In this document: piece by piece, positions 3,589 through 31,664 of the stretch
Numbering within the stretch: the first letter of the stretch is position 1
Layout: each line of letters opens with the position of its first letter
Assembly (NCBI GenBank): GCA_019695485.1
Contig: JAEUAF010000022.1
Coordinates: 1-36,331 of the forward strand
Origin: Sorangium sp.
GTDB taxonomy: Bacteria > Myxococcota_A > Polyangia > Polyangiales > Polyangiaceae
Direction: 5' to 3'
Length of the DNA: 36,331 nt
Position numbers and translations under genes: made by a program
The notes under the pieces: generated by a model
Database searches by the model: none
Told to the model about the DNA's origin: nothing
The model's input: only the letters and a program-made list of their open reading frames with translations

Positions 3589-4437
3589 CTAGGTGGGTTT
3601 CTGGAAGTTCATCAAGTTGCCGCGCGCCGTCGACGTCAAGAGCCCGCTCGTGACGCCCGCCATGGGCGCGTTGAAGGCCATGATGTAGGGACCGAGGAGG
3701 CCGTTGAGGGGATTCGCTGGCGATGCGCTGTCATTTGTGTTGCCAATTAGAATATTGCCGGTCGCGGCGAAGAGGGCGCCGAGCGTCGCGGTGCCCGTGA
3801 TGCTGGCAATCACCGCTCCGTCGACGGAGAGCAGGAGCTTGGCGGCATCGGTCGCGCCGTCTTTGTTGTATTCCGCCGTGAGGAAATGCCACGCCGTATC
3901 GAGGAGATTGCCGGAGGTATTGCTCTTGGTTGTCGTGCCATCCGGAGAGGCGGCGGCGGTCGCTGTCGCGCCTACCGACGAAATGGCCAGCTTGACGCCG
4001 TTTGCGCCACCCGTTCCAGTGCTGATGCGGACCAAGCGTTGGGTTCCGCTCGCCGCGTCCAGCTTCACCCAAAACGCCCACCCGGCATAGTTCGTGCCGC
4101 ATGACTGGCTCGTGATCGGCCAGCTGAGGACGTCATTGGTCGCGAACTGCAAACACGGTAGGTTGTTGTTCGACATCACCAGTGTCGGGCGGCGCGCGGC
4201 TACCGTCTGAACGGCGGGGTTCGTGTTCAAGAGGTCGGGCACGACCGACGCATCTCCCGAGACGAGCGTGGCACTCGCGACGTCGAGCCAGGCACTCAGG
4301 CTGCCCGCGAGGTCGACGGTCGGCAGAAAGCCGAGGCTCCCGCCGCTCGGTGCGGCGGCCATCTCCCACGCCGCGCGCTGATTGCCGCCCAATGGCACGA
4401 GCGCCCGATGGGACACCGCCCGCTGTAACCCGCTCAT
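3589..4437 (-). CDS. LamG/concanavalin-like virion protein, probable fibre or receptor-binding
   Basis: A 282-residue protein. The middle (about residues 75-260) has the pattern of a LamG/concanavalin A-like jelly roll: PCLQFATNDVLSW, a GWAFWVKLD strand, LVRISTG, WHFLTAEYN and LLLSVDGAVIASITGT, ending in a LIGNTNDSASPANPLNGLLGPYI segment, all typical of LamG sandwiches that bind glycans. The Trp/Phe and Asn/Asp placement fits, although no binding site can be proved. The start ATG overlaps the upstream gene's stop by one base (TAATG). Being the last gene of the late operon, next to another surface-type protein, it is a good candidate for a fibre tip or receptor-binding protein. Confidence 0.65.
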   Translation of the reverse strand: MSGLQRAVSHRALVPLGGNQRAAWEMAAAPSGGSLGFLPTVDLAGSLSAWLDVASATLVSGDASVVPDLLNTNPAVQTVAARRPTLVMSNNNLPCLQFATNDVLSWPITSQSCGTNYAGWAFWVKLDAASGTQRLVRISTGTGGANGVKLAISSVGATATAAASPDGTTTKSNTSGNLLDTAWHFLTAEYNKDGATDAAKLLLSVDGAVIASITGTATLGALFAATGNILIGNTNDSASPANPLNGLLGPYIMAFNAPMAGVTSGLLTSTARGNLMNFQKPT

Positions 4438-5045
4438 TAGAGCCGATACCCGTCCACGGCCACGAACAGGTTGCCGACCCCGCTCGCACCCATCAGGATG
4501 TGATTGTTGACGACAATGCCGGTGTTCTTGGTGAGGACCATCGGGAGGATGCCTTGCCCGGGCAGATAGTCGTCATAGACGCCCGGGAGGACCGAACCGG
4601 CGCCGACCGCGAACTGTTCAGGCTCGTCGGTGTCCTCGCCCGTATAGGTCGAGCCGGTGATGGCGCCCGTCGCCGAGATGTAAGCGGACAACTCCGTGAG
4701 CGGGATGCGGTCGCCGACCGCGGGCGCACTCCCATCCGCCTTGCTCGCGACGCCGCCTTGAAAGAGATAGTGCGCCTGCACCGCCGTCCCGCCCGTCGTA
4801 TGAATGGCCGTGAAGCCATAGACCTTGTTCACGCGAAACGCGAGCGCCTGCGCGGATGCAAAGGCCGTCGTCGTCACCCAGCGCAGCCGGATGCCGGTGA
4901 TCAAGGCAGGGCGGTCAATGAGGTTCACGAAGCCGAACACGTCGCCGCCGGCCGCGACCGCGGTCACGAGGCCCGAGACCGCGCCGCACACGAACCCTTC
5001 GGCGTCGCGCAGGTTGATCGAATCGTTTAAAAAATTGCGCCTCAT
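4437..5045 (-). CDS. virion structural protein, beta-rich, probably surface or tail associated
   Basis: A 202-residue, beta-rich protein with very few charged residues in the core and a C-terminus (GIVVNNHILMGASGVGNLFVAVDGYRL) of a kind I have seen in phage structural proteins of unknown role. It is not enzyme-like. The first 40 bases of the gene are A+T-rich compared with its neighbours (TTTAAAAAATTG and a run of six T), which keeps the ribosome-binding site open; AAGGA lies about 10 bases before the ATG at 5045. It sits between the ejection proteins and the LamG protein. Confidence 0.6.
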   Translation of the reverse strand: MRRNFLNDSINLRDAEGFVCGAVSGLVTAVAAGGDVFGFVNLIDRPALITGIRLRWVTTTAFASAQALAFRVNKVYGFTAIHTTGGTAVQAHYLFQGGVASKADGSAPAVGDRIPLTELSAYISATGAITGSTYTGEDTDEPEQFAVGAGSVLPGVYDDYLPGQGILPMVLTKNTGIVVNNHILMGASGVGNLFVAVDGYRL

Positions 5046-5048
5046 TTT

Positions 5049-8000
5049 TTAATGTCCTTGGTCGTCGTGTAAAGACCCGAGCGAGGACGACGCGATCCTC
5101 GACGGCGCTTGGGATTGCATAGGGCTGGGCGGCGCGGGCGGTTTCTGTTGCTGCGCTTGGCTGGCCGTGGCTTGTTGAATGAGCGCCGCCATCTCGCCCG
5201 AGAGCGCGGGTTCGCCAGCGCCGTTCAGGCTCAAGGCGCTGTCGATCTGTTGCAAGGCCTGGAGCGGGATCGGGCCGCGCCGTTGCGAGAGCTGGTAGAT
5301 GCTCGAAAGCGCGTTCTGCCGAAACATCTCGTAGGCCTCGGGATGGTTCGCCTGCACGGCGTCCATCTGTTCGGGCATCAAGTCATTGGCCGCGAGGTCG
5401 TCCAAGGTATCGAGCGGGTGCAGGGTCCCGACCCACTTGGCCGCAAATGAATTGATGTCCTCGGTCGGCGGCGGGTACCCGTTCGGCACGAGCGCGGTCT
5501 TGCCGGACGGCGCCGGCAAGGCGTCGTGCAGGTATTCGACCTGCTGCATCGTTTGGGAGACCATCTTGGCGAACACCTCGGGGTGCAACCGGGGCAGATC
5601 GCCGAGGTTCGAGGCCATCGCGTTCGCGAGTTGCGTCGGGTCGTTCACGACCCGGGAGAGCAGCTGGCTTTTTTCGCGCCAGGCCTGCGCCGGGTCGTCC
5701 ACGTTCTTGCCCATGAAGCGCGCGACGGCACGCGGCACGCCGAGGTCTTGCGCGCGCGTCGATACCTCCCGAGCCGCCGCCGACTGGTAGCGCGGGGGCG
5801 CGTCCGGGTTCTTCGCGACCGTGAACAGATCGGACACGGCCGCTTGCGTGCGCTGCTCGACGCTCTTGCCGATGCGGGCGAGGGCCTCGGCCGTCCGGGT
5901 GCTCGCCGCCTGCTCGTCCGGGGTGAGGCCTTGAAGGCTGGCGGTGAGGGCTTGGCGCGCCGCGGCTTGCTTCGGTAAGAGCGTTTGACCGTCGGGGCCG
6001 ACCGCGGGCGGCGGGGGTGCGCCGTCGAGCGTGGCCGCCGAGGCCGTGCCGGGCGCTAGGAGGGCCGCGCCGCCCCCCAAGGCAGCGATGCCCGCGACCT
6101 TGCCCGCGACGTCATTGGCGGGGCTGCCCGGGGCGCCGGGAGCCGCGGCGGGGGGAGTGCCGGTCTGCCCGCCCCCGGGACCGCCCCCGGGCATGACGGG
6201 CGGCGCCGCGGGGCGGTGCGCCTCGTCCAGGAACTTGGACAAGCCCTCGGGCATCAAGGCGCGGTGAGTCGGGTCCTCGAGCAGCTCGCTCCCTTTCACG
6301 CGCGCCGCGTACCGGTCGAGGATCTGCCGCGTCGCCGTGCCGCGCTCGGCCATCTCGTTCCCGAAGCCGAAGGCCTCGCGCGCCCGGTCGATGCCGCGCG
6401 CGATTTTCCCCATCGCGCCCGACGAGCGCACGACTTGGCCGAGCGGGAAACCCACGGCCCGACCGCCATACTCGGCGAGATGCACGGCCGCGTTGGCGCC
6501 GAGCGCGGCGCCCGTCGACGCGCCCGCCGTTCCGTGCGCCGCCGTGCCCGCCTTGGCCTCGGCGACGTGCAGCACCTGTGCCGTGTTCATGTCGTCCCGG
6601 ATGGCCTGGAGCTCCTTGATGAGTTGCGGGAGGCCTTCGGTGTGGGACAGCCCCACCTCTTGACGGTTACGCGCGAGGGTTTCAGCGAGGTCGAGCGACT
6701 GCGCAAGATCGGCCTTGAACAGTTTCCCGCCGAGGTGCGGGTCCTCGAACAGCTTCCGGAACGCGTCCGGATCGGCGCGGCGCTCGATGGCACCCACCCC
6801 CGTCTCGCCGAAGGTGCGCCCGGTGACCTCGTAGAGCTTCTTTTGAATGCGCCCGAGGGGCTTGATGAGCTCGGTGATGGGCTCGTTGTGGGCGGCTTGG
6901 ATTTCCGCGTTGCGCCCGAAGAGCTCCGGATCGACGAGGCCCTCGCGCAGGCGGTTCGAGACCCCGAGGAGCTTTTGCATCAAGGCCGATCGTGTCTCTT
7001 GGTCGACGGCCGAGTTCGCGGCGTTGCCGAGACGGCCGACGAGGCCATCGATGCCGCGCTTCATGTTGTCGAGGGCGACGTTCCGCCCCGCGCTCCCGCG
7101 GAGGGTGGCATCCGGGGCGCCTTCGGCCCCGCTCGGGGTGAAGTCCACGTCTGAGAGTCGTGAGAGGCCTTTCTCGATTTCGGCGCTCCCGGCCTTGCCG
7201 AGGCCACCCGCGTGCTCGGTCTGCGCGAGGTCCGCGGCCGCGGCTTTCGCTTCCGCCCGGACGCCGTCGACCCATTTATTCTGCTTTTCGATGAGCTCCG
7301 GAGACCAGTCGGCTGCGCCGGGCTCGAAATCGGAGTGTTTCACCCCGAGGCCCGCGTCGTCATAGATGAACTTGTCGACCGCGTCGGCGGAGCGCGCTGC
7401 CTCGACGCTCAATTGCTCGCGGATCGCCGGGGCTGCCCCGGCAATCTTGCCCGCGTCCACGCCGTTGCCGTTCTTGATCTCGTCGATGGCTTTCGCCTCG
7501 GGGAGGGCGTCGAAATCCGCCGCCGCCGCGCCGCCGCTCATCGCGCGGCCTCCGCCTGCTCGCGTCCCGGTCGCTTCCGGGACTTCCCCCGGGTCGAGCT
7601 CGTTCAGGAAATTCCGCGCCCCCGGGGTGCCCTCGCCGCCCGGTCTCGCGGCGCCTCCGATCGCTTCCGCCCCCTCGCGCCCGAGGAGGCCGCCCACGAT
7701 GCGGCCGCCGCCCATCATGACCGCGCCGAGGGCCATGTTCGTGAGGCCCTTCATGCCGGCGGCTTTGACGGAGAAGTCCCGGTTGTCGGTGACCGCGTCG
7801 ACGGCCTCTTGGGAGAGGCCCATGCCGGCGCTCTCGGCGGCGAGCCCCGCGCCGGCACCGAGGAGCGGGCTCACCCCCGCGGCGGCTGCTGCTGCCTCGC
7901 CGATGCCGCCCGTCGCGGCACCGAGGATGCCGTAGGGCACGGCCTGGCCCGCGAGGGCCGCGGCAGGGTGCGCTTGGGACGCGTACTTGGTCGCGTCAAA

Positions 8001-19158: not shown

Positions 19159-19893
19159 TCAGGACCCCCAGCGCCCGCGCGTTCTACGGTTCCGGCGCAC
19201 GCGCGGGATGAGTTCCGCGGCGTTCATCATCTGCACCGATTGCTTGATTTCAGCCCAAATCTCGGTCTGTTGCCGAATGGCCTCTTCCAACGTGTTCTGC
19301 GCGTCGTCGTCTTTCTGCGCGACGCGACGCACGACGGCTTGGATGAGCCAGGAAAACCAAATGTCGTGCCCGTAGAACGCGTAGGTCTGGTCGGTGATGT
19401 CGACCCACACGGGCAAGTACCAAATCCGATAGTTGAACCCGCCCGTCGCCAACGGGAAGAGCCCGATCTTGCCGGCGGTGATGGTCGTCGTCGACTCGCT
19501 CGGCAAGGTGATCGGGAGCCAGTACGCGGGCGCGCTCTCGGTCGCGCCCCGGTCTTGAAAGTCGCTCCGCATCGCGAACGACATGGGCTTGAGCGGTATC
19601 CACTTGTTGCCGAGCAACACGTCTACGCCGTAGACCCCGACGGCGCCGTCGGGCCAATTGACCTCGATGTAGCGTTCCGTCGCGACCGGCGGCGTCGTCG
19701 GTAAGGCGGCGATGGTCGTCGGGATGGTCATGCCCGGCATCCCGACGTGGACGACCTTGGTGCGGAAGCGCCGCCATTCCAAGTTGATCCACTTGATGAG
19801 GGTCGCGTCCGGGTGCCGATCGGTCAGGCCCTCGATGTCCGCGGCCTCGCGCACGTCGGCGATCAACACCGATAAAAGCCGTGCGTTCGACAT
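19159..19893 (-). CDS. head-tail adaptor-like protein
   Basis: A 244-residue protein resembling podovirus adaptor proteins of about 200-250 residues. The N-terminal half has a helical start (LLSVLIADVREAADIEGL) and HPDATLIKWINLEWRRFRTKV, a pattern of helices used in adaptors that bind the portal ring; the rest is beta-rich with many Trp/Tyr (WPDGAVGVYGVDVLL, FYGHDIWFSWLIQAV) and ends in a very basic tail (RVRRNRRTRGRWG). The location between capsid accessory genes and the fibre fits. The family call rests on length, order and this pattern and could be confused with other neck proteins. It overlaps nothing; the fibre start lies 1 base after its stop. Confidence 0.6.
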   Translation of the reverse strand: MSNARLLSVLIADVREAADIEGLTDRHPDATLIKWINLEWRRFRTKVVHVGMPGMTIPTTIAALPTTPPVATERYIEVNWPDGAVGVYGVDVLLGNKWIPLKPMSFAMRSDFQDRGATESAPAYWLPITLPSESTTTITAGKIGLFPLATGGFNYRIWYLPVWVDITDQTYAFYGHDIWFSWLIQAVVRRVAQKDDDAQNTLEEAIRQQTEIWAEIKQSVQMMNAAELIPRVRRNRRTRGRWGS

Positions 19894-21632: not shown

Positions 21633-23003
21633 TTAGAGCGCCACCGGGAAGGGCGCGCGGCCCGTGTTCGTGATCATCGCGTCTTTCTTGAGCTTGAAAG
21701 ACGGGTTGGCGGTCCACCGCATCTCGTAATCGTCCTCGGTGGTCTTCCGAAGCATGTCGACGCCGTCGTCGTCGATGAGGTGCGGGAAGCCGTCGTAGTG
21801 CACGATCTCCCAGTCGCCCGTGCTCGTCGCGAGCACGTAATCGGCGGGCATATCGACCTCGTCGATGATTTCGTACGCGCCGGACTGATGGTTCAAGGTG
21901 ATCGTCGCGTAGCTGAACGTCGCGCCCGAGCTCGCGTATCGGCTGTCGCCGCCTTCCTTCCGCGAGGAGGTGTAGCGCGACCCGTCCGCGGTCCGCATGC
22001 GGCGGGACTCGAGGTGGCGCGACAGTTGGCGGAAACGCGCCGTCGAGACGAACATCTCCTTGTCGCCATCCCAGTCCGCGCGCTCACGGCCGATGTCGAA
22101 TAGGTGCTCGAATACTTCTTCCACGCCGTCGTTCGTCACGTCGGTGGTGATGAGCTTTACGCCGCTCATGCGAGGATCGCGCGAGCGGTCGACGGCCTTA
22201 TAGGTGTCGGTCGCGTCAGTGTCGGTAACCCAGGCCTGAATGCTGTCGATGCGGTGCCCGAATTTCGAGCCCGTATCGATGCCGCCCTTGAAGTCGCCGC
22301 GGAAGTAAAAGTAGATCGTCGTCGACTCGGTCCACCCGGAGGGCGTCGCGGCCGTGCCGCCAAAGGACGTCGAGACGGTCACCGTCGGCGCGGTGCCGAA
22401 GCGGCCGGTCAGCGACACGCAAAAGCCTACGGACCCGGACCCGTAGAGAGTGTGGCTCGTGCTCGAGCCGTCGTCGGCGGAGGCCTGGAGCTGGTCGGCG
22501 CGGACCTCGACATAGGCGATGCGGTTCGCGTCGCGGGAATCGATGGTGATGACACCGTTCAGAATGGTGCCGCGGAAGAGCCACATGCCCTTCGGACCGA
22601 GGATGCCGCGGTTGACGCGAGACCCGAAGGTCTGAAGCATGTTGTCGGTCTTGACCTGGAGCGTCTTCGCGTACGCCCCCATCTTCTCCTTGTCGTTGCC
22701 CGTGGCCGCGATTTCATCGTGCAGGATGAGGAGGTTGCCCTTGATTTTCCCGACGTAGGAAACCCAGTCGAACGGCGCTAGGTTGCTCTCGTTGTCGTTC
22801 GAGATCGCCTGCGCTGCGCTACGGCTGTCGGCCCACGCGCGACCGCCGTGCAAGAGCGCCGGCTGTCGGAAGTTTTCGCCCGAGTCTTGGCGGGTCGAGA
22901 TCTTGTCGAGAAATACGGTCTTCCGCTTCGACATGGCCTCGATGCGGCCCGGTTGTTCGAACTGATCCTTCAACCACTCGTTGAGGATGGTTAATGCAGC
23001 CAT
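21633..23003 (-). CDS. major capsid protein
   Basis: A 456-residue protein from ATG 23003 with AGGTG about 9 bases upstream; the in-frame extension to 23102 lies in a leader full of hairpins, so I use the later start. The sequence begins with a helix (ALTILNEWLKDQFEQPGRIEAMSKRKTVFL), has a beta core with WVTDTDATDTYK and MFVSTARFRQLSRHLES, and a C-terminal beta segment ending in APFPVAL. It is in the usual size range, directly follows TerL, precedes decoration-type genes and is preceded by a long leader, all expected of the coat gene. The fold (HK97-like) is assumed, not shown. No cleavage site is obvious. Confidence 0.75.
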   Translation of the reverse strand: MAALTILNEWLKDQFEQPGRIEAMSKRKTVFLDKISTRQDSGENFRQPALLHGGRAWADSRSAAQAISNDNESNLAPFDWVSYVGKIKGNLLILHDEIAATGNDKEKMGAYAKTLQVKTDNMLQTFGSRVNRGILGPKGMWLFRGTILNGVITIDSRDANRIAYVEVRADQLQASADDGSSTSHTLYGSGSVGFCVSLTGRFGTAPTVTVSTSFGGTAATPSGWTESTTIYFYFRGDFKGGIDTGSKFGHRIDSIQAWVTDTDATDTYKAVDRSRDPRMSGVKLITTDVTNDGVEEVFEHLFDIGRERADWDGDKEMFVSTARFRQLSRHLESRRMRTADGSRYTSSRKEGGDSRYASSGATFSYATITLNHQSGAYEIIDEVDMPADYVLATSTGDWEIVHYDGFPHLIDDDGVDMLRKTTEDDYEMRWTANPSFKLKKDAMITNTGRAPFPVAL

Positions 23004-23415: not shown

Positions 23416-24942
23416 CTACAGCCGCGTCCTCCTCCCCTTCGCGGGCCGCGCCCGGTGGGTCGGGTTCGATAGCCGCGTGAGCCGCTCCGCACGGCGCACG
23501 GCGGCGAGGTTTTCGAGCTTCTCTTGGAGCGCTTCCCACTCCTCGGCATTGAGCGCGGGCTTTTTGGCGGGCTTGACCAATGCGAGCTTTCGGAGCTCGA
23601 ACACGGCCCATAAGGACGCGTCGATCACCTCGTCGGGAATGCCGTCCTGATGGCTGTCACCGTCCTCGTTCCAGGTCATCGCTTTCAATTCGACGATGAG
23701 CTCCCGGCACCGGGTCGGGTGGAGCTTGGCCTTGCCGCTCCGGAGCACGGCCTTCAAGTCCTTGATGAGGGGCAGCTTGCGGTGATTGTTTTCGGCGGGC
23801 TCGGCGGGGATGCCGTAGTTCAAGAGCGACTTGCAAATGGTCGTCGCGCCGTGGCCTTTCGAGTCCACCCTCACATTGTGCGAGCGCCACCGAATCATGA
23901 GCTTCCGGATCTCGGCCGCAAGCTCGTCGGTGTCGAGGTTGACGGCCGCGTACGCTTCCACGCACCGGAGCTCGTCCGAGTCCCACCGTTTCTGCCAGAC
24001 CGCAAAGCCGCACCCGTCGCGGTCGCCGAGGTCGACACCAATAAAGGTACGTAGGGCGCCCTGCCGGTCCCACTCCGTCGTCTCGTCGTAGAGGTTCTTG
24101 GCCGGCGAAAATCGGTAAATGAAAGCCGAGTCGTCCCGGACCCAACGCCCGAGGTACTCGATGATGAATTCCGGGTCGCTCTCGTCGCAGCCGAGTTCCG
24201 CGAGCTGGTCGGCGAAATACTGCCGCGCCCCGCCCGCGTATTGGATGAACGGGTTGTCGAGCGCATTGAAGCGATGAACGCTCCAGCTCCGGGCTGCCAG
24301 GGCCGCGGCGCTCTCGTCGTCGTTGTCGTTGGCGGGGTCGCCCGTGATCTCGTACCAAAGCCCGGCGAGAGCCCGGCGCGGCGTGCCCATCAGCATGAGC
24401 TTGCCGCCGAAGTCCATCAGCGTCGGTTTCAACGCCGAGCGGATGAAGTATCGCAAGAGCGGGTCTTCGAAGAGCTCGGCCTCGTCGATGACGACTTTCA
24501 CGAAGCGCTTGCCGCGCGCGACGCGGTTCGCTTGTTTCTTGTTCTCGCACCCGGTGACGAGAATGGTGTAGCCGTTCGGGAAGCGCGCCTCGAGTCGGCT
24601 CTCGTTGAACTCGATGCCGATCGCGAATTTCTCGTCGAAATCGTGCAGGCGGTCCCAAATGATTTCCCGCGCGCTCCCTATCGTGGACGCAACGTAGAGG
24701 CTGCGCTTGCCCGGGTGGGCGCGCCAGTCCTTGCCGAGCCAGTAGATGCATCCTTCGGTCTTGCCCGCGCGCCGACCGGCGAGGACGGCGATGTTGCTCG
24801 CCTGGTCGTTGGCAACGGCCGCCTGCTTTTCGTGCAGGAACTCGAGCCACTGCGCCCACTCCGGATCGGGCGGCTTGAAGCCGAAGAGCAACCCGACCTG
24901 CGCGAGCGCCTCGCACGGGTCGAGCAGGTCGAGCGCGTTCAC
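23416..24942 (-). CDS. terL: terminase large subunit (packaging ATPase/nuclease)
   Basis: A 508-residue motor protein that pumps DNA into the prohead and cuts it. Walker A is AGRRAGKT (residues 55-62), Walker B is VKVVIDEAE (about 148-156) with D and E as metal/catalytic residues, and coupling motif III is LMLMGTPR (182-189). The nuclease half has IGVDLGDRDG (around 290), VDSKGHG and the closing PDEVIDASLWAVFE, giving the three acidic residues of an RNase H-like site. The start is GTG 24942 with no convincing Shine-Dalgarno. It follows TerS by several small genes and is followed by a strong hairpin. Confidence 0.93.
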   Translation of the reverse strand: MNALDLLDPCEALAQVGLLFGFKPPDPEWAQWLEFLHEKQAAVANDQASNIAVLAGRRAGKTEGCIYWLGKDWRAHPGKRSLYVASTIGSAREIIWDRLHDFDEKFAIGIEFNESRLEARFPNGYTILVTGCENKKQANRVARGKRFVKVVIDEAELFEDPLLRYFIRSALKPTLMDFGGKLMLMGTPRRALAGLWYEITGDPANDNDDESAAALAARSWSVHRFNALDNPFIQYAGGARQYFADQLAELGCDESDPEFIIEYLGRWVRDDSAFIYRFSPAKNLYDETTEWDRQGALRTFIGVDLGDRDGCGFAVWQKRWDSDELRCVEAYAAVNLDTDELAAEIRKLMIRWRSHNVRVDSKGHGATTICKSLLNYGIPAEPAENNHRKLPLIKDLKAVLRSGKAKLHPTRCRELIVELKAMTWNEDGDSHQDGIPDEVIDASLWAVFELRKLALVKPAKKPALNAEEWEALQEKLENLAAVRRAERLTRLSNPTHRARPAKGRRTRL

Positions 24943-25258: not shown

Positions 25259-25839
25259 GCCGCCCCCCCATGCCGGCGCCGCTCTTTCGCCTCGTGCGCC
25301 TCGTCCCGTTCCTTGTCGAGCCGCGCGCTCTCGCGTTGCCCGGCGCGTTCGGCATCGTCGCGGGTCTCCCATGCAATGGGCTTCGCTTTCGGCAACGCCT
25401 CGAACTTGCGATCGATGTGGGCGCGGGTGGTTTTGATGTCGCCCTCGAGCAAGGCAATCTGGCGCTGTAACGGCTTGATCACCTCATACGGGTCGGCCTG
25501 CACCTCGCGCAGCTCGTCGAGCACGCGCATGTGGTCGGTCATCTTGCGCGCAATCTCGCCCGCGGCCCGCACCTGCTCGGCCCCGTCCCGGTGGGCCTGG
25601 CCGAGGTCGCGCGCGCGCCGATCGATGTCGCCCATGGCCTTGTCGAGCTTGGTCGCAAGCGCGCTCACGCGCACGTCGAGGCGCGCCAAGGCCTCCTTGC
25701 ACTCACTCACGTCCCGGACGCTGGCTTTCCGGTTCTCCTCTACGACGGTCCGGAGCTCGACGAGTCGCGCGGCGAGGCCCTGGTTTTCGTCGGTCGCGGC
25801 GGTGCGGTCGGATGCCGTCGCGGTCTTGTCACGCGCCAT
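25255..25839 (-). CDS. coiled-coil protein in the packaging block
   Basis: A 194-residue, very charged protein predicted to be almost all helix. Heptad-like repeats run from about residue 20 to 165 (AARLVELRTVVEENRKASVRDV, RLDVRVSALATKLDKAM, LQRQIALLEGDIKTTRAHI) and the end is basic (DKERDEAHEAKERRRHGG). It overlaps TerS by 11 bases. The shape suggests an oligomeric rod-like factor. It could help DNA packaging or head assembly; no family is recognised. Confidence 0.65.
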   Translation of the reverse strand: MARDKTATASDRTAATDENQGLAARLVELRTVVEENRKASVRDVSECKEALARLDVRVSALATKLDKAMGDIDRRARDLGQAHRDGAEQVRAAGEIARKMTDHMRVLDELREVQADPYEVIKPLQRQIALLEGDIKTTRAHIDRKFEALPKAKPIAWETRDDAERAGQRESARLDKERDEAHEAKERRRHGGAA

Positions 25840-26443
25840 GATTCGCCTCGCTCATCTGTTGCCACCCTTTCGCCGCGAAGATTGCCCGGAGCGCGGGCGG
25901 CATGTTCTCGGCCAGCTGCGTCACGATAGCGACGGCCGCCTCCATGGTGAACGCGGTCGCGGCCGGTTGCAAGATGTCGACGACGTCGCCCTCGTCCTCG
26001 CGCCGGACCCAGTCGTTGCGCCACTGGTGAAAGCGGCGCTCGAGGTACCATTGAATGCCGCTCGTGCGGCGGGTCGTCACGGTCTTGCCCGTCGGCTTGC
26101 CCTCGTCGAACACGGTCTCTTCGAACGAGGCTTGGGTGTCCCGGAGCTCTTTCACGCACTCGGCCCGGATCGTGCCCTCGATGGCCATGAATTCGACGAA
26201 CAAGCGCGCGTACAGGTCCTTGCCCTCGCTCGCCGCGCCTTGCTTGAGCCACCGGGAAAGCATCTTCGGATGCACCCCACATCTCGCGGCGGTGATGTTC
26301 CGAAAGTCGCCGGCCTCGTGCGTTTCGCAGAGTTGCTTCAAGAGCGGCTCGGTGAGGGCGGAACGCAGCCGACCGAGCTCGTCGCGTTCGGTCTTGGCGC
26401 GAGAAGGGGAGCGGCCCATCGGGGAGCGTTTCTTGCCGGGCAT
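25829..26443 (-). CDS. terminase small subunit candidate
   Basis: A 204-residue protein with a basic start (PGKKRSPMGRSPSRAKTERDEL), a helix-turn-helix in ITAARCGVHPKMLSRWLKQG (about residues 49-68) and a long helical oligomerisation part. TerS proteins recognise the packaging site with such an N-terminal HTH and pass DNA to TerL. The pattern and its proximity (one coiled-coil and two small genes upstream of TerL) make this the best TerS candidate. A general HTH regulator cannot be excluded. The start ATG directly follows the previous stop (TAGATG). Confidence 0.7.
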   Translation of the reverse strand: MPGKKRSPMGRSPSRAKTERDELGRLRSALTEPLLKQLCETHEAGDFRNITAARCGVHPKMLSRWLKQGAASEGKDLYARLFVEFMAIEGTIRAECVKELRDTQASFEETVFDEGKPTGKTVTTRRTSGIQWYLERRFHQWRNDWVRREDEGDVVDILQPAATAFTMEAAVAIVTQLAENMPPALRAIFAAKGWQQMSEANHGA

Positions 26444-26710
26444 CTAGCAGTCCGAGGGCTTGGCGTCCCAAAAGGCGCGAGCCCAGTTCCAGGAATCCTC
26501 GAGGCTACCTTGGCAGCGCTCGACATAGACGCGCATCGCGAGCTCTCGAATGAACGCGCGCCGCTCATCGAGCGCGATGGGCGCGAACGTCCCAAGGGGC
26601 GGCATCGCGAACGGTTGCCAGCCCGCGGGCGGCTGCGCGCTGCACGACGGGCACCCGGTCGCGGTGAGTTCGCGTTCGCAGATGTGACACCGAGCGAAGG
26701 GCATCGTCAT
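26444..26710 (-). CDS. small zinc-ribbon protein
   Basis: An 88-residue protein with CHICE at the N-terminus and GCPSC shortly after (C8, C11, C20, C23), a compact CxxC...CxxC zinc ribbon. The rest is a Pro-rich linker and an amphipathic helix with Trp/Arg (FIRELAMRVYVERC). The ATG at 26710 overlaps the upstream stop (ATGA). Zinc ribbons of this sort bind nucleic acid or proteins; nothing more specific can be said. It is next to TerS. Confidence 0.6.
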   Translation of the reverse strand: MTMPFARCHICERELTATGCPSCSAQPPAGWQPFAMPPLGTFAPIALDERRAFIRELAMRVYVERCQGSLEDSWNWARAFWDAKPSDC

Positions 26711-26883
26711 ATCGCCTCGGTGGGAGGCGGCTTGTCCGCCTCGATTTCGTACTCGATGAGGACGTGATCGTGACGAAAGAAAGTCTCGGCGCGATAGTCG
26801 CCGTTCGGCAAATAGCGATGGCCGACCTCGTCCGTGAGTATGGCCGCGGCCTCTCGGAGAGTGAGCTTAAACGCGCGTTTCAT
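26707..26883 (-). CDS. small hypothetical protein (58 aa)
   Basis: A 58-residue protein from ATG 26883, which overlaps the stop of the co-chaperonin gene (ATGA). It begins MKRAFKLTLREAAAIL, then has GHRYLPNGDYRAETFFRHDH and ends with acidic residues. The frame is open further upstream, but that lies inside the tandem GroES gene. It has alternating beta residues and no metal motif. Function unknown; translated with the co-chaperonin if the coupling is real. Confidence 0.55.
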   Translation of the reverse strand: MKRAFKLTLREAAAILTDEVGHRYLPNGDYRAETFFRHDHVLIEYEIEADKPPPTEAI

Positions 26884-27677
26884 ATCGCCCGATCCAAGAT
26901 GCCCGCGACGGCATGATCGAACTCGAACAGCGTGAACTTGCGCCCGGCGAGTGTGATCTCGACGGGACGGGCAATGTCCGTGAACACGACCAGATCGCCC
27001 GGCTTGCAATCGGGCGTTTCCCAATAGGGATCGCTTTCGAGCACCCACGGCGGCTCGCACCGATCGTCCGCTCCCTCGCGCACGCGTTGCCGATACCCGC
27101 CAAACTTGCCGGGCCCGACGGCAACGACCTCCTCGATACGGGTCTTGTTGCACCCGACGTCGTCGGCCTCCTCGCCCTTCTTGTCGAGCCCCATCGTTTT
27201 ACCGATGTGAAAGGGCAAGTCGCCCATGACCGCCACCCGCGCGCGTTCGTCGACCTCGCGGGTCATCACGAACTGCCCGGCGGGGCGGAGTCGAACGTTG
27301 TCGCGGTCGAGGGTCGCTAGGATGCCGTCCATGGGGATGTAGAAATGGTTCTGCTTTCGAAGGTGCAGGCGGAACGGGATGGTCCGCTCTTTCACGTAGC
27401 AGAGGTCGCCCGTCGCTACCTCGGCTGGCTGTCGACCGCCCGGCACCCATCGGCCCGGGCCGCACGCGGTGACCTCCACGAGGCGGACCTTGTTGCGCTT
27501 GCCGTCGAGCTTGATGCCCGGATCGGGGGTGGCGATGGTCGCGCTGTGCAGGTTCTCTGCGATGTCGCCGCGTTCGATGACCGAACAGAAATGGTGGTAC
27601 GGCGCGGTCATGATGCGCGGGCGCTCGCCCCATTGGATCGGGGTCGGGACGGGGTCGGGAACGACGCGGAGGGTCAC
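26880..27677 (-). CDS. tandem GroES-like co-chaperonin
   Basis: A 265-residue protein built of two GroES-like units. Unit 1 (about residues 24-124) has VIER, a GIKL segment where the mobile loop would be, VTACGPGRW, VATGDLCYV and the end YIPMDGILATLD. Unit 2 (about 127-265) has VRLRPAGQFVMTREV, EEVVAVGPGKF, CKPGDLVVFTD, VEITLAGRKFTLFEFDHAVAGILD. These match GroES: NIRPLxDRVIVKR, GEVLAVGNG, VKVGDIVIF and a hydrophobic DILA(I/V) end. A GTG start at 27677 has GGGGAGG 6 bases upstream and overlaps the previous stop, so the ATG in the middle of the frame is not needed. It would cap host GroEL during folding of virion proteins. Two-unit co-chaperonins are best known from plastid Cpn20; this case is inferred. 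Confidence 0.8.
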   Translation of the reverse strand: MTLRVVPDPVPTPIQWGERPRIMTAPYHHFCSVIERGDIAENLHSATIATPDPGIKLDGKRNKVRLVEVTACGPGRWVPGGRQPAEVATGDLCYVKERTIPFRLHLRKQNHFYIPMDGILATLDRDNVRLRPAGQFVMTREVDERARVAVMGDLPFHIGKTMGLDKKGEEADDVGCNKTRIEEVVAVGPGKFGGYRQRVREGADDRCEPPWVLESDPYWETPDCKPGDLVVFTDIARPVEITLAGRKFTLFEFDHAVAGILDRAI

Positions 27678-27907
27678 TTGGCACCTCCCCACGCGCAGTC
27701 TTTGCAATACACGCTCTCACGATGGCGCGCCGGCCACCGACCGACGCGCGGGCACTTCAGTTGATGACATTCCACGCACTCCCCGTAACGCCACCACACG
27801 GGGATATACTGGGCGAGAGCTTTGGCTAATGTCCAGAAAGCCTGCACGGCGAGGACATAGAGGATTGCCCAAAGGAGGCACCCGATGCCGTAGAAGGCCG
27901 CGCTCAT
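27674..27907 (-). CDS. small membrane protein with zinc-type cysteines
   Basis: A 77-residue protein with a membrane span near the N-terminus (residues 5-27: FYGIGCLLWAILYVLAVQAFW), a second hydrophobic aromatic part, then CVECHQLKC (C44, C47, C52) and YCKDCAW (C68, C71), which look like a zinc ribbon. It overlaps both neighbours (scaffold start region and co-chaperonin start). A membrane anchor with a cytoplasmic zinc ribbon could place virion assembly factors at the membrane, but the function is unknown. Confidence 0.55.
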   Translation of the reverse strand: MSAAFYGIGCLLWAILYVLAVQAFWTLAKALAQYIPVWWRYGECVECHQLKCPRVGRWPARHRESVYCKDCAWGGAK

Positions 27908-29325
27908 CGCCGCTTCCCTCCCGAGTTGTGCTTCTCGAAAATGCGATCGAACCGCGCTTCCGCACTCTCCTCGCGCACGCCGTTCGCGGTCCGCTCCCCG
28001 CGCGGCACGGTGCGCGAGCCCGTCTTGGCCAACGCCGCCGGCTCGGTCACGTCCTCGCCATCGGTGTCGAGCGCGCCTTTCAATTCCCGGAGCCGTTTCT
28101 TCTCGTGCGCCACGATGCGGTCCGCGGCCTGCTCGAACGAGTATTTCGGCGCCTTTAGGGTCTTGTCGGCGGTCTTGATCAAGTACGCCAGCACGCGTTC
28201 TTTCCCGCGCGGGAGTTTTAGAACCGGGTGCCCGTCGAGGTCGCTCTCGATTTGGTCGAGGTAGTGCTCGCGGTGCTCGGTGACCTGCGCTTGCCGTTGC
28301 GACTCGGTCTGTTGCACCTTGTCGGCCTCGGCCTTCTCGGCAAGCTGGCGTTGCAAGGCCTGGAGTTGCTGCTTGACCTCTTGGGTCTCGCGCTGCGCGG
28401 TCTCGGCCAATTGCCGCGCGGCTCGCCCATCGGGGGACATCTTGACCCCGCGCACGAACAACTTCATCGCCTCGTCATGGGGCTTGCCACTCGCGCGACT
28501 GACGATCTCGCTCAAGGCGGTAAAGTCGCCATTCTCGATATCGCGCAGGGCCTTCATCGTATCGATGGCGCGGTCGACGATGGGCCAGGTCAGCTTCTCG
28601 CCGAGCCCGGCCTGGAGCTTCCGCATGACTTGCGAGGATGGCTCGAGCACGCGCACGGCTTCCGCTATGCGGTCCTCGTTCTTTTTCGCGACGGCCGCGA
28701 GCTCGTCTTTCGCCTTGCGCCGCTCTTGTCGGATCGCCCCGTAGTTGCGATCGTCGAACTCGGGCGGGAGCTTGCCGAACGCCTCCCGCATCGCGCTTTT
28801 ATAGAGCCGGCGCGCCTCGGCAGGGTCCTCCGCGGCTTCGGCCTCGGCGTAGAGCTTGCGGGCCTTGCTGGTCGATACCGAGCCCGAGGCGCCCTCCTCA
28901 GCGGCTGTTTCCTCGGGCTCGGACTCGTCTTGCACCTTGCCCTTCGGCGCGGCCTTGTCGGCTGCTTTCGCGTCGGGCTTGGCTTTGGTCTTGTCCGCCT
29001 TGTCGTCGTGGACGGCCGCGGCCTTCGGTTTCTTCTCCGGCTCGGCCGCTTTCGCGTCGGCTTTCGGCTTCGGCTCGCTCTTGCCCTCGGCCTTGTCGTC
29101 CTTGGCCTTCGGCTTCGGCTTGTCCGCGGCCGCGTTCTTGGCGTCGGCCTTCTCGCGCGTTTCGGTGCGATGCTTGGCGACCGCGTCCTTGCCGAAATGC
29201 TTGTTGAATATCTCCTCGTCTTTCACCCCGATGGGCTTGGAGAATTCTTTCCCGTACTCGCCTTTTGGAGCACTAGGCGCGGAGGAGGAATCGCCCGAGG
29301 GCGTTGCGGCGGCTGTCTCGGCCAT
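27904..29325 (-). CDS. scaffolding protein candidate
   Basis: A 473-residue protein, very rich in Lys, Ala, Glu and Pro in the first 180 residues, with long charged helical regions in the rest (EDRIAEAVRVLEPSSQVMRKLQAGLGEKLTWP, and ETAQRETQEVKQQLQALQRQLAEKAEAD). A conserved-looking GEYGKEFSKPIGVKDEEIFNKHFGKDAVAKHR segment lies near the N-terminus. Extended, charged helical proteins placed between portal and capsid genes are classical scaffolding proteins that guide capsid assembly and are then removed. No protease motif is seen. The start ATG 29325 has no convincing Shine-Dalgarno. Confidence 0.65.
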   Translation of the reverse strand: MAETAAATPSGDSSSAPSAPKGEYGKEFSKPIGVKDEEIFNKHFGKDAVAKHRTETREKADAKNAAADKPKPKAKDDKAEGKSEPKPKADAKAAEPEKKPKAAAVHDDKADKTKAKPDAKAADKAAPKGKVQDESEPEETAAEEGASGSVSTSKARKLYAEAEAAEDPAEARRLYKSAMREAFGKLPPEFDDRNYGAIRQERRKAKDELAAVAKKNEDRIAEAVRVLEPSSQVMRKLQAGLGEKLTWPIVDRAIDTMKALRDIENGDFTALSEIVSRASGKPHDEAMKLFVRGVKMSPDGRAARQLAETAQRETQEVKQQLQALQRQLAEKAEADKVQQTESQRQAQVTEHREHYLDQIESDLDGHPVLKLPRGKERVLAYLIKTADKTLKAPKYSFEQAADRIVAHEKKRLRELKGALDTDGEDVTEPAALAKTGSRTVPRGERTANGVREESAEARFDRIFEKHNSGGKRR

Positions 29326-29331
29326 GGGAGG

Positions 29332-29649
29332 TTAGGCGGCGGGCGTGGCGGGTTCGGGCGCCGACGTGGCGAGTTCCCAGTCCTCGGCAAGCAAGTCCGT
29401 TTGGGAGCAAAGCCACGGCACGAACGCGCCGTCGACCGTGCGCATCATGACGTAAGGCAGGAACTTGCACACGGTGCCCTGCTCGATGCCGGTCGCTTGC
29501 GCGGTGTTCGCGTTGATCGGGATGCCGTCCGGGTAGCCCTTTTGAAAGACCAGGAACATGCCCTTGCCGTTCCAACCGGTGCGGCGGACCTTGCCGCCGT
29601 GGTAGCGCATCTCGAGCACCGCCCAACCGATGCCGTGTAACTCACCCAT
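29332..29649 (-). CDS. Tad2 / DUF2829-family protein (anti-Thoeris candidate)
   Basis: A 105-residue protein with the DUF2829/Tad2 signature: WAVLEMRYHGGKVRRTGWNGKGMFL near residues 9-33 and FLPYVMMRTVDGAFVPWLCSQTDLLAEDWEL near 63-92 (the family's usual form is KxGKKVxRxGWNGKGMxL and PxIxMKxxDGxxVPWxxSQTDLLAEDW). Tad2 proteins are known to bind the cyclic ADP-ribose-type signal made by Thoeris ThsB and so block the defence. Whether this one does is inference. It has a good Shine-Dalgarno (AGGAGA, 9 bases before ATG 29649) and lies between portal and scaffold, unusual for a counter-defence gene. Confidence in family is high, in activity moderate. Confidence 0.85.
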   Translation of the reverse strand: MGELHGIGWAVLEMRYHGGKVRRTGWNGKGMFLVFQKGYPDGIPINANTAQATGIEQGTVCKFLPYVMMRTVDGAFVPWLCSQTDLLAEDWELATSAPEPATPAA

Positions 29650-29675: not shown

Positions 29676-31664
29676 CTAGGCTGCGATCTTAGCCGCCACT
29701 TGCGGCGCAATGGGAGCGGGCGCGCCCTCGGGTCCACCGAGCGCCGTAGCGGCCGCGGCAGTGCCACCGGCGGCGCCCAAGGTCTGGGCTTGCTGGCTCT
29801 GCTGCTCGTCGGCGAATTGCTTCAATTGCCCGAGGTAGCGGGCGAAATACTGGAGCCGCAGATCGTCGACGTCGTCCGCCTGCGCGTTCAGGTAGGCGCG
29901 GTTGACCTGAATGATGGCCGCGAAGATGTCCATGGTGCGGACCGGGCCGCGGTAGAACGTGCGGCCCCGCATCTCGCGCGGATCGGCCATGAGCCATTTG
30001 TCGAGCTGCAATCCAATGAGACGCTCTTGCGCGTCGTTGTTCGATTTTGCGCCCTGTAGAGCGTCGTAGTATTTGAGCGTGTTCAGGTACGCGTCGCCCG
30101 TCACCATGCCGACCGAGAGCAGCTCTTGCGACAAGGCCAGCTGGCTCTCGGGCGTGTTCTTGGTCTCGCTCACGCTGTATTGGCCGACGTCGTATTTGTA
30201 CTCGTCGAGGATCGAAAGCACCTTGCTGTCGATTTGCTTCATGAACCCGTTGCCCTTCCAGGTCGCGGCAAAGTTCGGATCGTCCTCGGCGAGCTCTTTC
30301 GCGCAGCGGATGATTTGCTTGCTGGCCTCGATGGTCGAGGCCTGCACGTACGCGCGTTGGATCGTCGCGAACCGCTCGTTGATGAGCTGCTTGCGAATGC
30401 GTAGCGCAGCGCCGGACCATTCGCCCGAGGTGTCGCCCGCCGCGTGCATCTCGCTGATGCCCGGGAGGTTGTAGCACTGCTCGATGTAGAATTTCACCAA
30501 GTCGAGCGCGAGCGGGTGGAAGGGCGCGGGGGTCTCGTAGATCGGTTTGCCCTTCATGCCGGACAGGCCCGGGATCGGGATGCACTCGTGATCGTCGCCG
30601 ACCGCGAGCATTTCTTTCGTGATCTCCTCGGGGTCGTAGAAGATCACACCCTTCGGGGTGAGCCGCTCGCTTCGGTCGATGCTGGAGAGAATCTCGTTCA
30701 CGCGCAGGATCGGCGCGACGATGGGCTTGGTGAGCGTGCGGTGCCAGAACGAGGTCAGCGAGCGCTGTCCGCCCACGAACACAAACGGCGGGTCCTCGTG
30801 CGCGTACGGCTCCCATTCGAGGGCTTCTTTCGCGCCCGGGAATGACATGGCGTAGACCCCGTTGGTCTCGCCTTGCTTGAACCGCCACCCTTCGGTCACG
30901 GGCACCCGGTCGAGGTCCTCGCGCAGGTAGTCGCGGTCGTCGTTTAGGAGCTCGAGGCCGAGGCTGCGGCGCGGGTGGGTGCAGGCCTTGCGGATATCGT
31001 CGGCCAACCCGGGCAGCCCGGATCGATACTTGTTGCCATAGATGTCGATGAGCCGGTCCGGGTCCCACCACGTGGTCTGTCCCATCGCGCTCGGGTAGTC
31101 GTAGACCGCGCCCGGGGTGTCGACCCACATGCTGAGCGTGTCGTGGACCTCGGCGCAGACTTTCTTGCTCTTGCGGTTCGCGTAGAACTTCACGGCCGCC
31201 GTGCGCGTCGAGGCGAGGGCCAGGCGCAGCGCGAACCGGAACACGTCCCACAGATCGAAAAACCGCCCCTGCCGCTCGTAGTACTGGCCCTCGATGAAGC
31301 GGTCGGCGAGGCGAGCTCGGCGCCGCACGTCCCACGATGCCTCCGTCGTCACGATCTGCGGCTTGGTGTTTTCGAGCCCGGCGATCTTCGCGTCGAGGGT
31401 GTCGACGAGGCTTTGGGCCAGATTGAGGGTGATGTCGACGGCCTCGCCTTGAATGCGGGCCTCGTCGGAGGTGTTGTCGCTCGTGCCAAGCCCACGGTCG
31501 AAACCCGTGATGGTCTCGCCCTCGTAGAGGCGCATGAGCTTGACCGCGTCGTTCTTGCGGCGTTGCTGGCGGCCCTCGTAGTTGCGGGCGAGGTCGCACA
31601 AGGTCTTGTGCCCGTCGGCCTCGGGCTGGCGATACCAGACGCGTTGACGGGCGCTGTCCGCCAT
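29676..31664 (-). CDS. portal protein
   Basis: A 662-residue protein in the size range of podovirus portals (T7 gp8 is about 540, P22 gp1 725). The N-terminal half has the typical helical and beta mix with RKNDAVKLMRLYEGE, RARLADRFIEGQYYERQGRFFDLWDVFRFALRL and the beta-rich GWRFKQGETNGVYAMSFPGAKEALEWEPYAHEDPPFV; the helical barrel end has RLQYFARYLGQLKQFADEQQSQQAQTLG. The portal ring is the gate for DNA entry and exit. It is the first large gene of the late operon, with start ATG 31664 directly after the previous stop (TAGATG). Confidence 0.8.
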   Translation of the reverse strand: MADSARQRVWYRQPEADGHKTLCDLARNYEGRQQRRKNDAVKLMRLYEGETITGFDRGLGTSDNTSDEARIQGEAVDITLNLAQSLVDTLDAKIAGLENTKPQIVTTEASWDVRRRARLADRFIEGQYYERQGRFFDLWDVFRFALRLALASTRTAAVKFYANRKSKKVCAEVHDTLSMWVDTPGAVYDYPSAMGQTTWWDPDRLIDIYGNKYRSGLPGLADDIRKACTHPRRSLGLELLNDDRDYLREDLDRVPVTEGWRFKQGETNGVYAMSFPGAKEALEWEPYAHEDPPFVFVGGQRSLTSFWHRTLTKPIVAPILRVNEILSSIDRSERLTPKGVIFYDPEEITKEMLAVGDDHECIPIPGLSGMKGKPIYETPAPFHPLALDLVKFYIEQCYNLPGISEMHAAGDTSGEWSGAALRIRKQLINERFATIQRAYVQASTIEASKQIIRCAKELAEDDPNFAATWKGNGFMKQIDSKVLSILDEYKYDVGQYSVSETKNTPESQLALSQELLSVGMVTGDAYLNTLKYYDALQGAKSNNDAQERLIGLQLDKWLMADPREMRGRTFYRGPVRTMDIFAAIIQVNRAYLNAQADDVDDLRLQYFARYLGQLKQFADEQQSQQAQTLGAAGGTAAAATALGGPEGAPAPIAPQVAAKIAA

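Follow-up and report, generated by a model that had tools for sequence, protein, structure and literature searches.

Double co-chaperonin lids are known mainly from plant chloroplasts. Cpn20, like GroES concatamers of six to eight domains, works with seven-fold chaperonins, and the Cpn20 of Plasmodium substitutes for GroES in E. coli (PMC5780408). Among phages, gp31 of T4 replaces GroES in the folding of the capsid protein gp23, for which it is needed, and its loop is longer than that of GroES (22 versus 16 residues) (PMC6318259). Co-chaperonins of the gp31 type showed that viruses can retune the host folding chamber for their own capsid. Here we describe a gene from the window, which is the whole 36,331-nucleotide stretch of DNA that was analyzed, and compare its 265-residue product, in which two GroES-like units appear to be joined, with these systems.

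The gene and its head-gene neighborhood

The minus strand of the window contains an open reading frame that starts with GTG at position 27677 and ends with a stop codon at 26880–26882; the encoded protein of 265 residues has a mass of 29.6 kDa. The start of the gene overlaps the stop codon of the upstream gene for a 77-residue protein, and such overlaps between neighboring genes are usual within operons. The ribosome-binding site GGGGAGG is strong, as the first-pass annotation had noted, but it does not stand out as the strongest among the minus-strand genes, the GGGAGGG of the 77-residue gene being equal in quality. Three orthologues were identified on contigs of uncultured phages, with 61–67% identity to the window protein across nearly the full length by BLAST. 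Codon comparison of the orthologues reveals changes mostly at third codon positions and dN/dS ratios of 0.21–0.40, with synonymous sites near saturation. Given these values, the third-position changes and the presence of the three orthologues in the same operon position, the open reading frame is a real gene.

The gene order is common to all four contigs and runs from the portal candidate through the scaffold-like gene, the tandem Cpn10 gene, the terminase small subunit (TerS), a coiled-coil gene and the terminase large subunit (TerL) to the capsid candidate. The placement between scaffold and TerS that had been read from the window is therefore the same in the three orthologue contigs, the scaffold being named by position and composition. 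The scaffold-like protein is 40–53% identical among all four phages, and the orthologues of the portal candidate and the capsid candidate show 73–76% and 80–82% identity, respectively. Between the portal candidate and the scaffold-like gene lies a gene for a 105-residue Tad2-like protein, for which no BLAST relative was found at the corresponding place in L003 or L006. An 88-residue protein with a zinc-ribbon-like start (CHICERELTATGCPSC) is encoded between the co-chaperonin and TerS. The positions of these features are listed in Table 1.

Table 1. Positions of the co-chaperonin gene, its parts and neighbors, its orthologues, and two further probable double co-chaperonins
Feature	Sequence	Position	Strand	Size	Basis or remark
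Tandem Cpn10 (double GroES-like) co-chaperonin gene, putative	window	26880..27677	-	265 aa	GTG start; stop included
Unit 1, residues 1–126, Cpn10 domain	window	27300..27677	-	126 aa	hhalign to Cpn10; PF00166 cut-off passed here by L006 and L039
Unit 2, residues 127–265, Cpn10 domain	window	26883..27299	-	139 aa	hhalign to Cpn10; AF2 model
Unit 1 mobile-loop tip GIKLDGK, residues 54–60	window	27498..27518	-	7 aa	GIKLDG invariant in four sequences
Ribosome-binding site GGGGAGG	window	27684..27690	-		six bases ahead of the co-chaperonin GTG (sequence)
Membrane-type protein	window	27674..27907	-	77 aa	open reading frame list; overlaps co-chaperonin gene start
Scaffold-like protein	window	27904..29325	-	473 aa	named from position and composition only; no family match
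Tad2-like gene	window	29332-29649	-	105 aa	PF11195 (Thoeris anti-defence 2-like) E 3.2e-21; phrog_1048 E 1.3e-26
Portal candidate	window	29676..31664	-	662 aa	named from size and position only; no family match
Protein with zinc-ribbon-like start	window	26444-26710	-	88 aa	weak DZR match, E 0.059
Terminase small subunit	window	25829..26443	-		phrog_4102 E 1.4e-7
Terminase large subunit	window	23416..24942	-		phrog_2 E 5.7e-34; PF17289 E 3.5e-8
Major capsid protein candidate	window	21633..23003	-	456 aa, 50.5 kDa	weak SU10_MCP match, E 0.1
Orthologue L003	IMG/VR 3300048896_000254	5503-6342		280 aa	
Orthologue L006	IMG/VR 3300043313_001143	5947-6720		258 aa	
Orthologue L039	IMG/VR 3300044983_000249	4993-5760		256 aa	
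Cellulophaga phage phi18:3 gp096 (PHROG_13932)	NC_021794 (L084)	41458-42060		200 aa	annotated 'co-chaperonin GroES'
Podovirus ctfjg026 UOF82516, gp096 relative	MW202828 (L085)	3896-4459		187 aa	annotated 'hypothetical protein'

The protein encoded at 19159–19893 matches the SU10 adaptor family (PF24175) just above the cut-off (E 4.9e-6). Together with the weak SU10_MCP match of the capsid candidate, this match makes an SU10-like short-tailed phage likely; SU10 itself combines a prolate head with a short tail (PMC9509320). The large late genes on the minus strand between 3589 and 23102, which encode proteins of 1070, 607, 543, 1056 and 524 residues as well as the capsid candidate, gave no PHROG or Pfam match. 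When the window protein, the portal candidate and the capsid candidate were compared with GenBank phages by tblastn, no relatives were found, and a search of the same phages with TerL returned distant relatives only. No capsid relatives were detected in the GenBank phage collection or in the species genomes, and pattern scans with the co-chaperonin and capsid alignments found none in 84,980 species genomes. The 379 genomes of the same phylum gave a single match besides the window's own copy, and this match (E 4.1e-4 for one genome) proved to be a cellular GroES. A further match (E 6.6e-4, G090) covers 88 residues on a contig with no visible phage genes and was treated as chance. The phage thus looks like a member of a divergent short-tailed group with no relative found in GenBank. 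On the 36 kb contig, neither tRNA genes nor the terminal repeats that would mark a complete genome were found.

Cpn10 matches in the two halves and their differences

The window protein alone gave no Pfam match and no PHROG match. The NCBIfam GroES model NF001530 aligned to it in two stretches with an E value of 2.2e-4, which is below the naming cut-off of the model, and to the orthologues with E values of 2.3e-6 to 1.2e-7. The gathering score of Pfam PF00166 was exceeded by two orthologues, in unit 1, and PHROG_3188 (co-chaperonin GroES) matched L003 (1.8e-5) and L039 (2.8e-6).

To compare each half with the Cpn10 family, hhalign was used with a set of 29 cellular Cpn10 sequences, which gave E values of 1.5e-5 for unit 1 and 5.6e-7 for unit 2; the two units matched each other with an E value of 7.5e-5. 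The scores were 34.3 for unit 1, 42.3 for unit 2 and 32.2 for unit against unit, compared with maxima of 18.2, 21.4 and 23.6, respectively, in 100 column shuffles for each comparison. Against 69 cellular and viral Cpn10 rows, a few of them duplicated, the E values were 1.1e-6 and 9.3e-10. As a negative control, ten other window proteins were compared with Cpn10, and all gave E values above 0.05. T4 gp31, submitted to the same test as a single sequence, reached 0.024–0.07, which is worse than either unit, so that hhalign places both units closer to GroES than it places gp31. When a four-sequence profile was searched against all PDB sequences, places 1–9 were all occupied by GroES or Cpn10 (best E 0.0022), and stretches from both units aligned in register with them. 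DnaJ and CsoS4A, which were at the top of a single-sequence PDB search (E 0.13–0.16), were gone with the four-sequence profile.

The two successive GroES-like units of the 265-residue frame had been proposed in the first-pass annotation by motif reading. They are now borne out by profile statistics with shuffle controls, the match to the GroES family being significant in each half, and we regard the presence of two Cpn10 domains as almost certain. It is hardly credible that one half is a true Cpn10 domain and the other an unrelated beta domain. Such a reading could draw on the weak HMMER scores of single halves for individual sequences and on the unusable full-length AF2 model (three sequences, pLDDT 33), which was discarded, but it conflicts with hhalign E values below 2e-5 for both halves, with shuffles far lower, and with the match between the halves. 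In addition, scans with unit 2 alone gave GroES families as the best or only match in most orthologues.

A structure of unit 2 alone was modeled with AF2, using an alignment of unit 2, its orthologues and 20 viral Cpn10 sequences. The model has a pLDDT of 77, with a core near 90. Solved GroES chains were at the top by both Foldseek and VIA-align 2, with Z scores of about 10, and the solved gp31 structures followed with 7.7–7.8. Medium-chain dehydrogenases also came up in the fold comparison of unit 2, with Z scores no higher than 5.3 (GroES, about 10), and were rejected. Because Cpn10 rows were included in its alignment, the model is supportive and not independent, and it indicates compatibility with the GroES beta-barrel fold. 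Residues 30–50 of the model, which form the loop, have pLDDT values mostly below 50 and are flanked by confident barrel on either side, as for a mobile loop.

In unit 1, the loop tip precedes the GPG turn by 19 residues; the corresponding distance in the host GroES, from GGII to VGNG, is 20 residues. The middle residue of its GIKL is charged, and the corresponding sequence in host GroES is GIII. For the first strand, the motif RPxxxxVxxR had been assigned to unit 1, but this assignment is weak, as the proline alone is kept. From the alignment, the counterpart of GroES strand 1 appears better placed at HHFCSVIER (residues 28–36). With this placement, the leg connecting strand 1 and the tip would exceed that of GroES by about 8 residues. 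In its roof segment, unit 1 has the usual length (17 versus 18 residues).

Unit 2 opens with a good P.G..V..RE strand, and EEVVAVGPG and K.GDL..F are kept without exception. The aspartate of GDL, which had been ascribed to both units, is invariant in unit 2, but unit 1 has GQ or GA in the orthologues. The loop of unit 2 is longer, and its sole GroES-like tip, KT.G[LV][DE], contains no clear hydrophobic triplet. At 39 residues, its roof segment exceeds that of GroES by about 21 residues; it was modeled as a beta hairpin. The pI is 8.9 for unit 1 and 5.1 for unit 2. In the L003 orthologue there is an 11-residue insertion past the first strand of unit 2 as well as a longer roof segment; the loop and roof of unit 2 therefore tolerate length changes, while the core length of unit 1 is constant. 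The invariant GIKL of unit 1, the unclear hydrophobic tip of unit 2 and its longer roof hairpin suggest that the roles of the two units have probably diverged. The earlier proposal of divergence, with the loop tip kept in unit 1 and unclear in unit 2, agrees with all four sequences.

Proposed role in capsid folding

Based on homology and genomic context, the protein is probably a fused co-chaperonin that caps the host GroEL to fold the capsid protein. It would be made alongside the head proteins of a phage that resembles SU10 and probably has a short tail, and several copies would assemble into a GroES-like ring. The odd place in the ring would perhaps be filled by host GroES, as in plastid Cpn10/Cpn20 mixtures. 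By capping host GroEL, the ring would enclose a folding chamber for the phage capsid protein in the manner of T4 gp31, and the capsid candidate is the presumed client. GroEL and GroES genes are present in the genome binned with the contig. In this genome, the one GroES gene lies next to a GroEL gene, and a further GroEL gene is on a different contig (G000:C623 9431–11308; G000:C70 430–1926).

Within such a ring, unit 1 is probably the main GroEL contact through its invariant GIKL tip, and unit 2, whose loop is longer and less hydrophobic and whose roof hairpin is extended, probably gives shape to the ring or chamber. In a more specific and rather doubtful version, unit 1 alone docks on GroEL through GIKL and unit 2 enlarges the roof or chamber. 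The ring would then alternate between docking and non-docking units, with a symmetry unlike the seven-fold symmetry of GroEL, and would serve one large capsid client.

Because the tip of unit 1 is charged in the middle and unit 2 has no hydrophobic triplet, GroEL binding could be weak or lost. We consider it unlikely that the protein, though derived from Cpn10, no longer binds GroEL and serves in head assembly or as a structural protein, with its barrels acting as a scaffold adaptor, decoration or packaging accessory. The GIKL tip that falls short of a full hydrophobic triplet, the unclear tip and large roof insertion of unit 2, and the position of the gene adjoining the scaffold-like gene and TerS would all fit a structural protein. 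On the other hand, GIKLDG is invariant amid variable surroundings, as expected of a docking site, and single-domain phage GroES proteins, which are common near terminase and portal genes, are taken as co-chaperonins.

The operon is not purely structural, since the Tad2-like gene belongs to an anti-defence family. This neighbor could be taken to favor an interference protein, a poor lid on host GroEL that diverts the chamber from host clients and contributes little to capsid folding directly; with its fused layout and unequal loops, the lid could bind but cycle badly. Expression with the head genes and joint conservation with the capsid and terminase genes in four phages fit a head role better. 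A phage whose capsid depended on GroEL would also need GroEL for itself. Interference is considered very improbable.

If the protein is indeed a fused co-chaperonin, its unequal double lid would be well suited to asking how many docking contacts are required by GroEL and could show whether roof size decides the choice of client. The puzzle of even-numbered lids on a seven-fold ring, which has been discussed for Cpn20, could also be probed with it.

Comparison with other co-chaperonins

Single-domain phage GroES proteins (PHROG_3188), such as those of Phage DSL-LC05, Xanthomonas phage PBR31 and Pelagibacter phage HTVC023P, have the Cpn10 family in common with the window protein. In DSL-LC05 and PBR31, the gene is near terminase and portal, like the window gene. 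These proteins differ from the window protein in having one domain and 82–146 residues, as did every recognizable viral Cpn10 in the 38 records checked (16 GenBank phage records and 22 IMG/VR contigs). A survey of close GroES relatives for further double viral Cpn10s found single-domain ones only, and no description of a double phage co-chaperonin was found in the open-access literature.

A fold library listing 200-residue viral entries yielded gp096 of Cellulophaga phage phi18:3. Its C-terminal half matches Cpn10 with an E value of 2.7e-8, and its N-terminal half has the Cpn10 motif order with a GLEL tip. As a two-sequence profile together with the ctfjg026 relative, the N-terminal half gave an E value of 0.0035 and a score of 22.0, compared with a shuffle maximum of 16.2. 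Both proteins are therefore probable double co-chaperonins, and the double layout in phages is probably not unique to the window protein. The statement in the first-pass annotation that known phage co-chaperonins are single-domain is thus nearly right, gp096 and its relative being the apparent exceptions. The gp096 and ctfjg026 genes are directly upstream of TerL and portal, and the window gene is likewise in a head and packaging operon. In contrast to the window protein, gp096 is shorter and has no unit 2 insertions, and phi18:3 carries a separate single GroES gene besides. The halves of gp096 did not match those of the window protein (E 0.06–0.13), although the alignments are shallow and a common origin is conceivable. 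Double co-chaperonins may have had more than one origin in phages. Since Pfam and PHROGs give nothing for the window protein itself, such proteins may have been missed by standard annotation or overlooked as plain 'GroES'.

T4 gp31 and CocO of RB49 are phage-encoded co-chaperonins of the Cpn10 fold that, like the window protein, are expected to serve capsid folding. The window family appears to lie outside the gp31 sequence family: gp31 matched the units by hhalign with E values of 0.12–0.22, and phrog_931 (head morphogenesis), which we take from its name and length to be the family holding gp31, did not appear among the PHROG matches (E ≤ 10) of any of the four proteins. Both gp31 and the window protein have a loop leg longer than that of GroES, but gp31 consists of one domain of 111 residues and the window protein of two. 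Moreover, gp31 has no roof loops (PMC6318259), whereas the roof segment of window unit 2 is enlarged.

Plastid Cpn20/Cpn21 (structure solved in PDB 7ekq, where chain Q has 212 residues and chain R has 194) resembles the window protein in layout. No transit-type extension was aligned in the orthologues, and the PDB profile search did not return the 7ekq Cpn20 chains; the window protein works at most like Cpn20, and no descent from the plastid protein is assigned. Cpn20 belongs to a eukaryotic organelle, has a mass of about 20 kDa after import and two domains close to GroES, whereas the window protein is phage-encoded, larger and very divergent, and the loop and roof insertions of unit 2 are its own. 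The likeness to plastid Cpn20 drawn in the first-pass annotation is fair as a layout, with two Cpn10 domains head to tail in one chain, identified in the window protein by hhalign, and both proteins share the problem of placing an even number of domains on a seven-fold chaperonin (PMC5780408).
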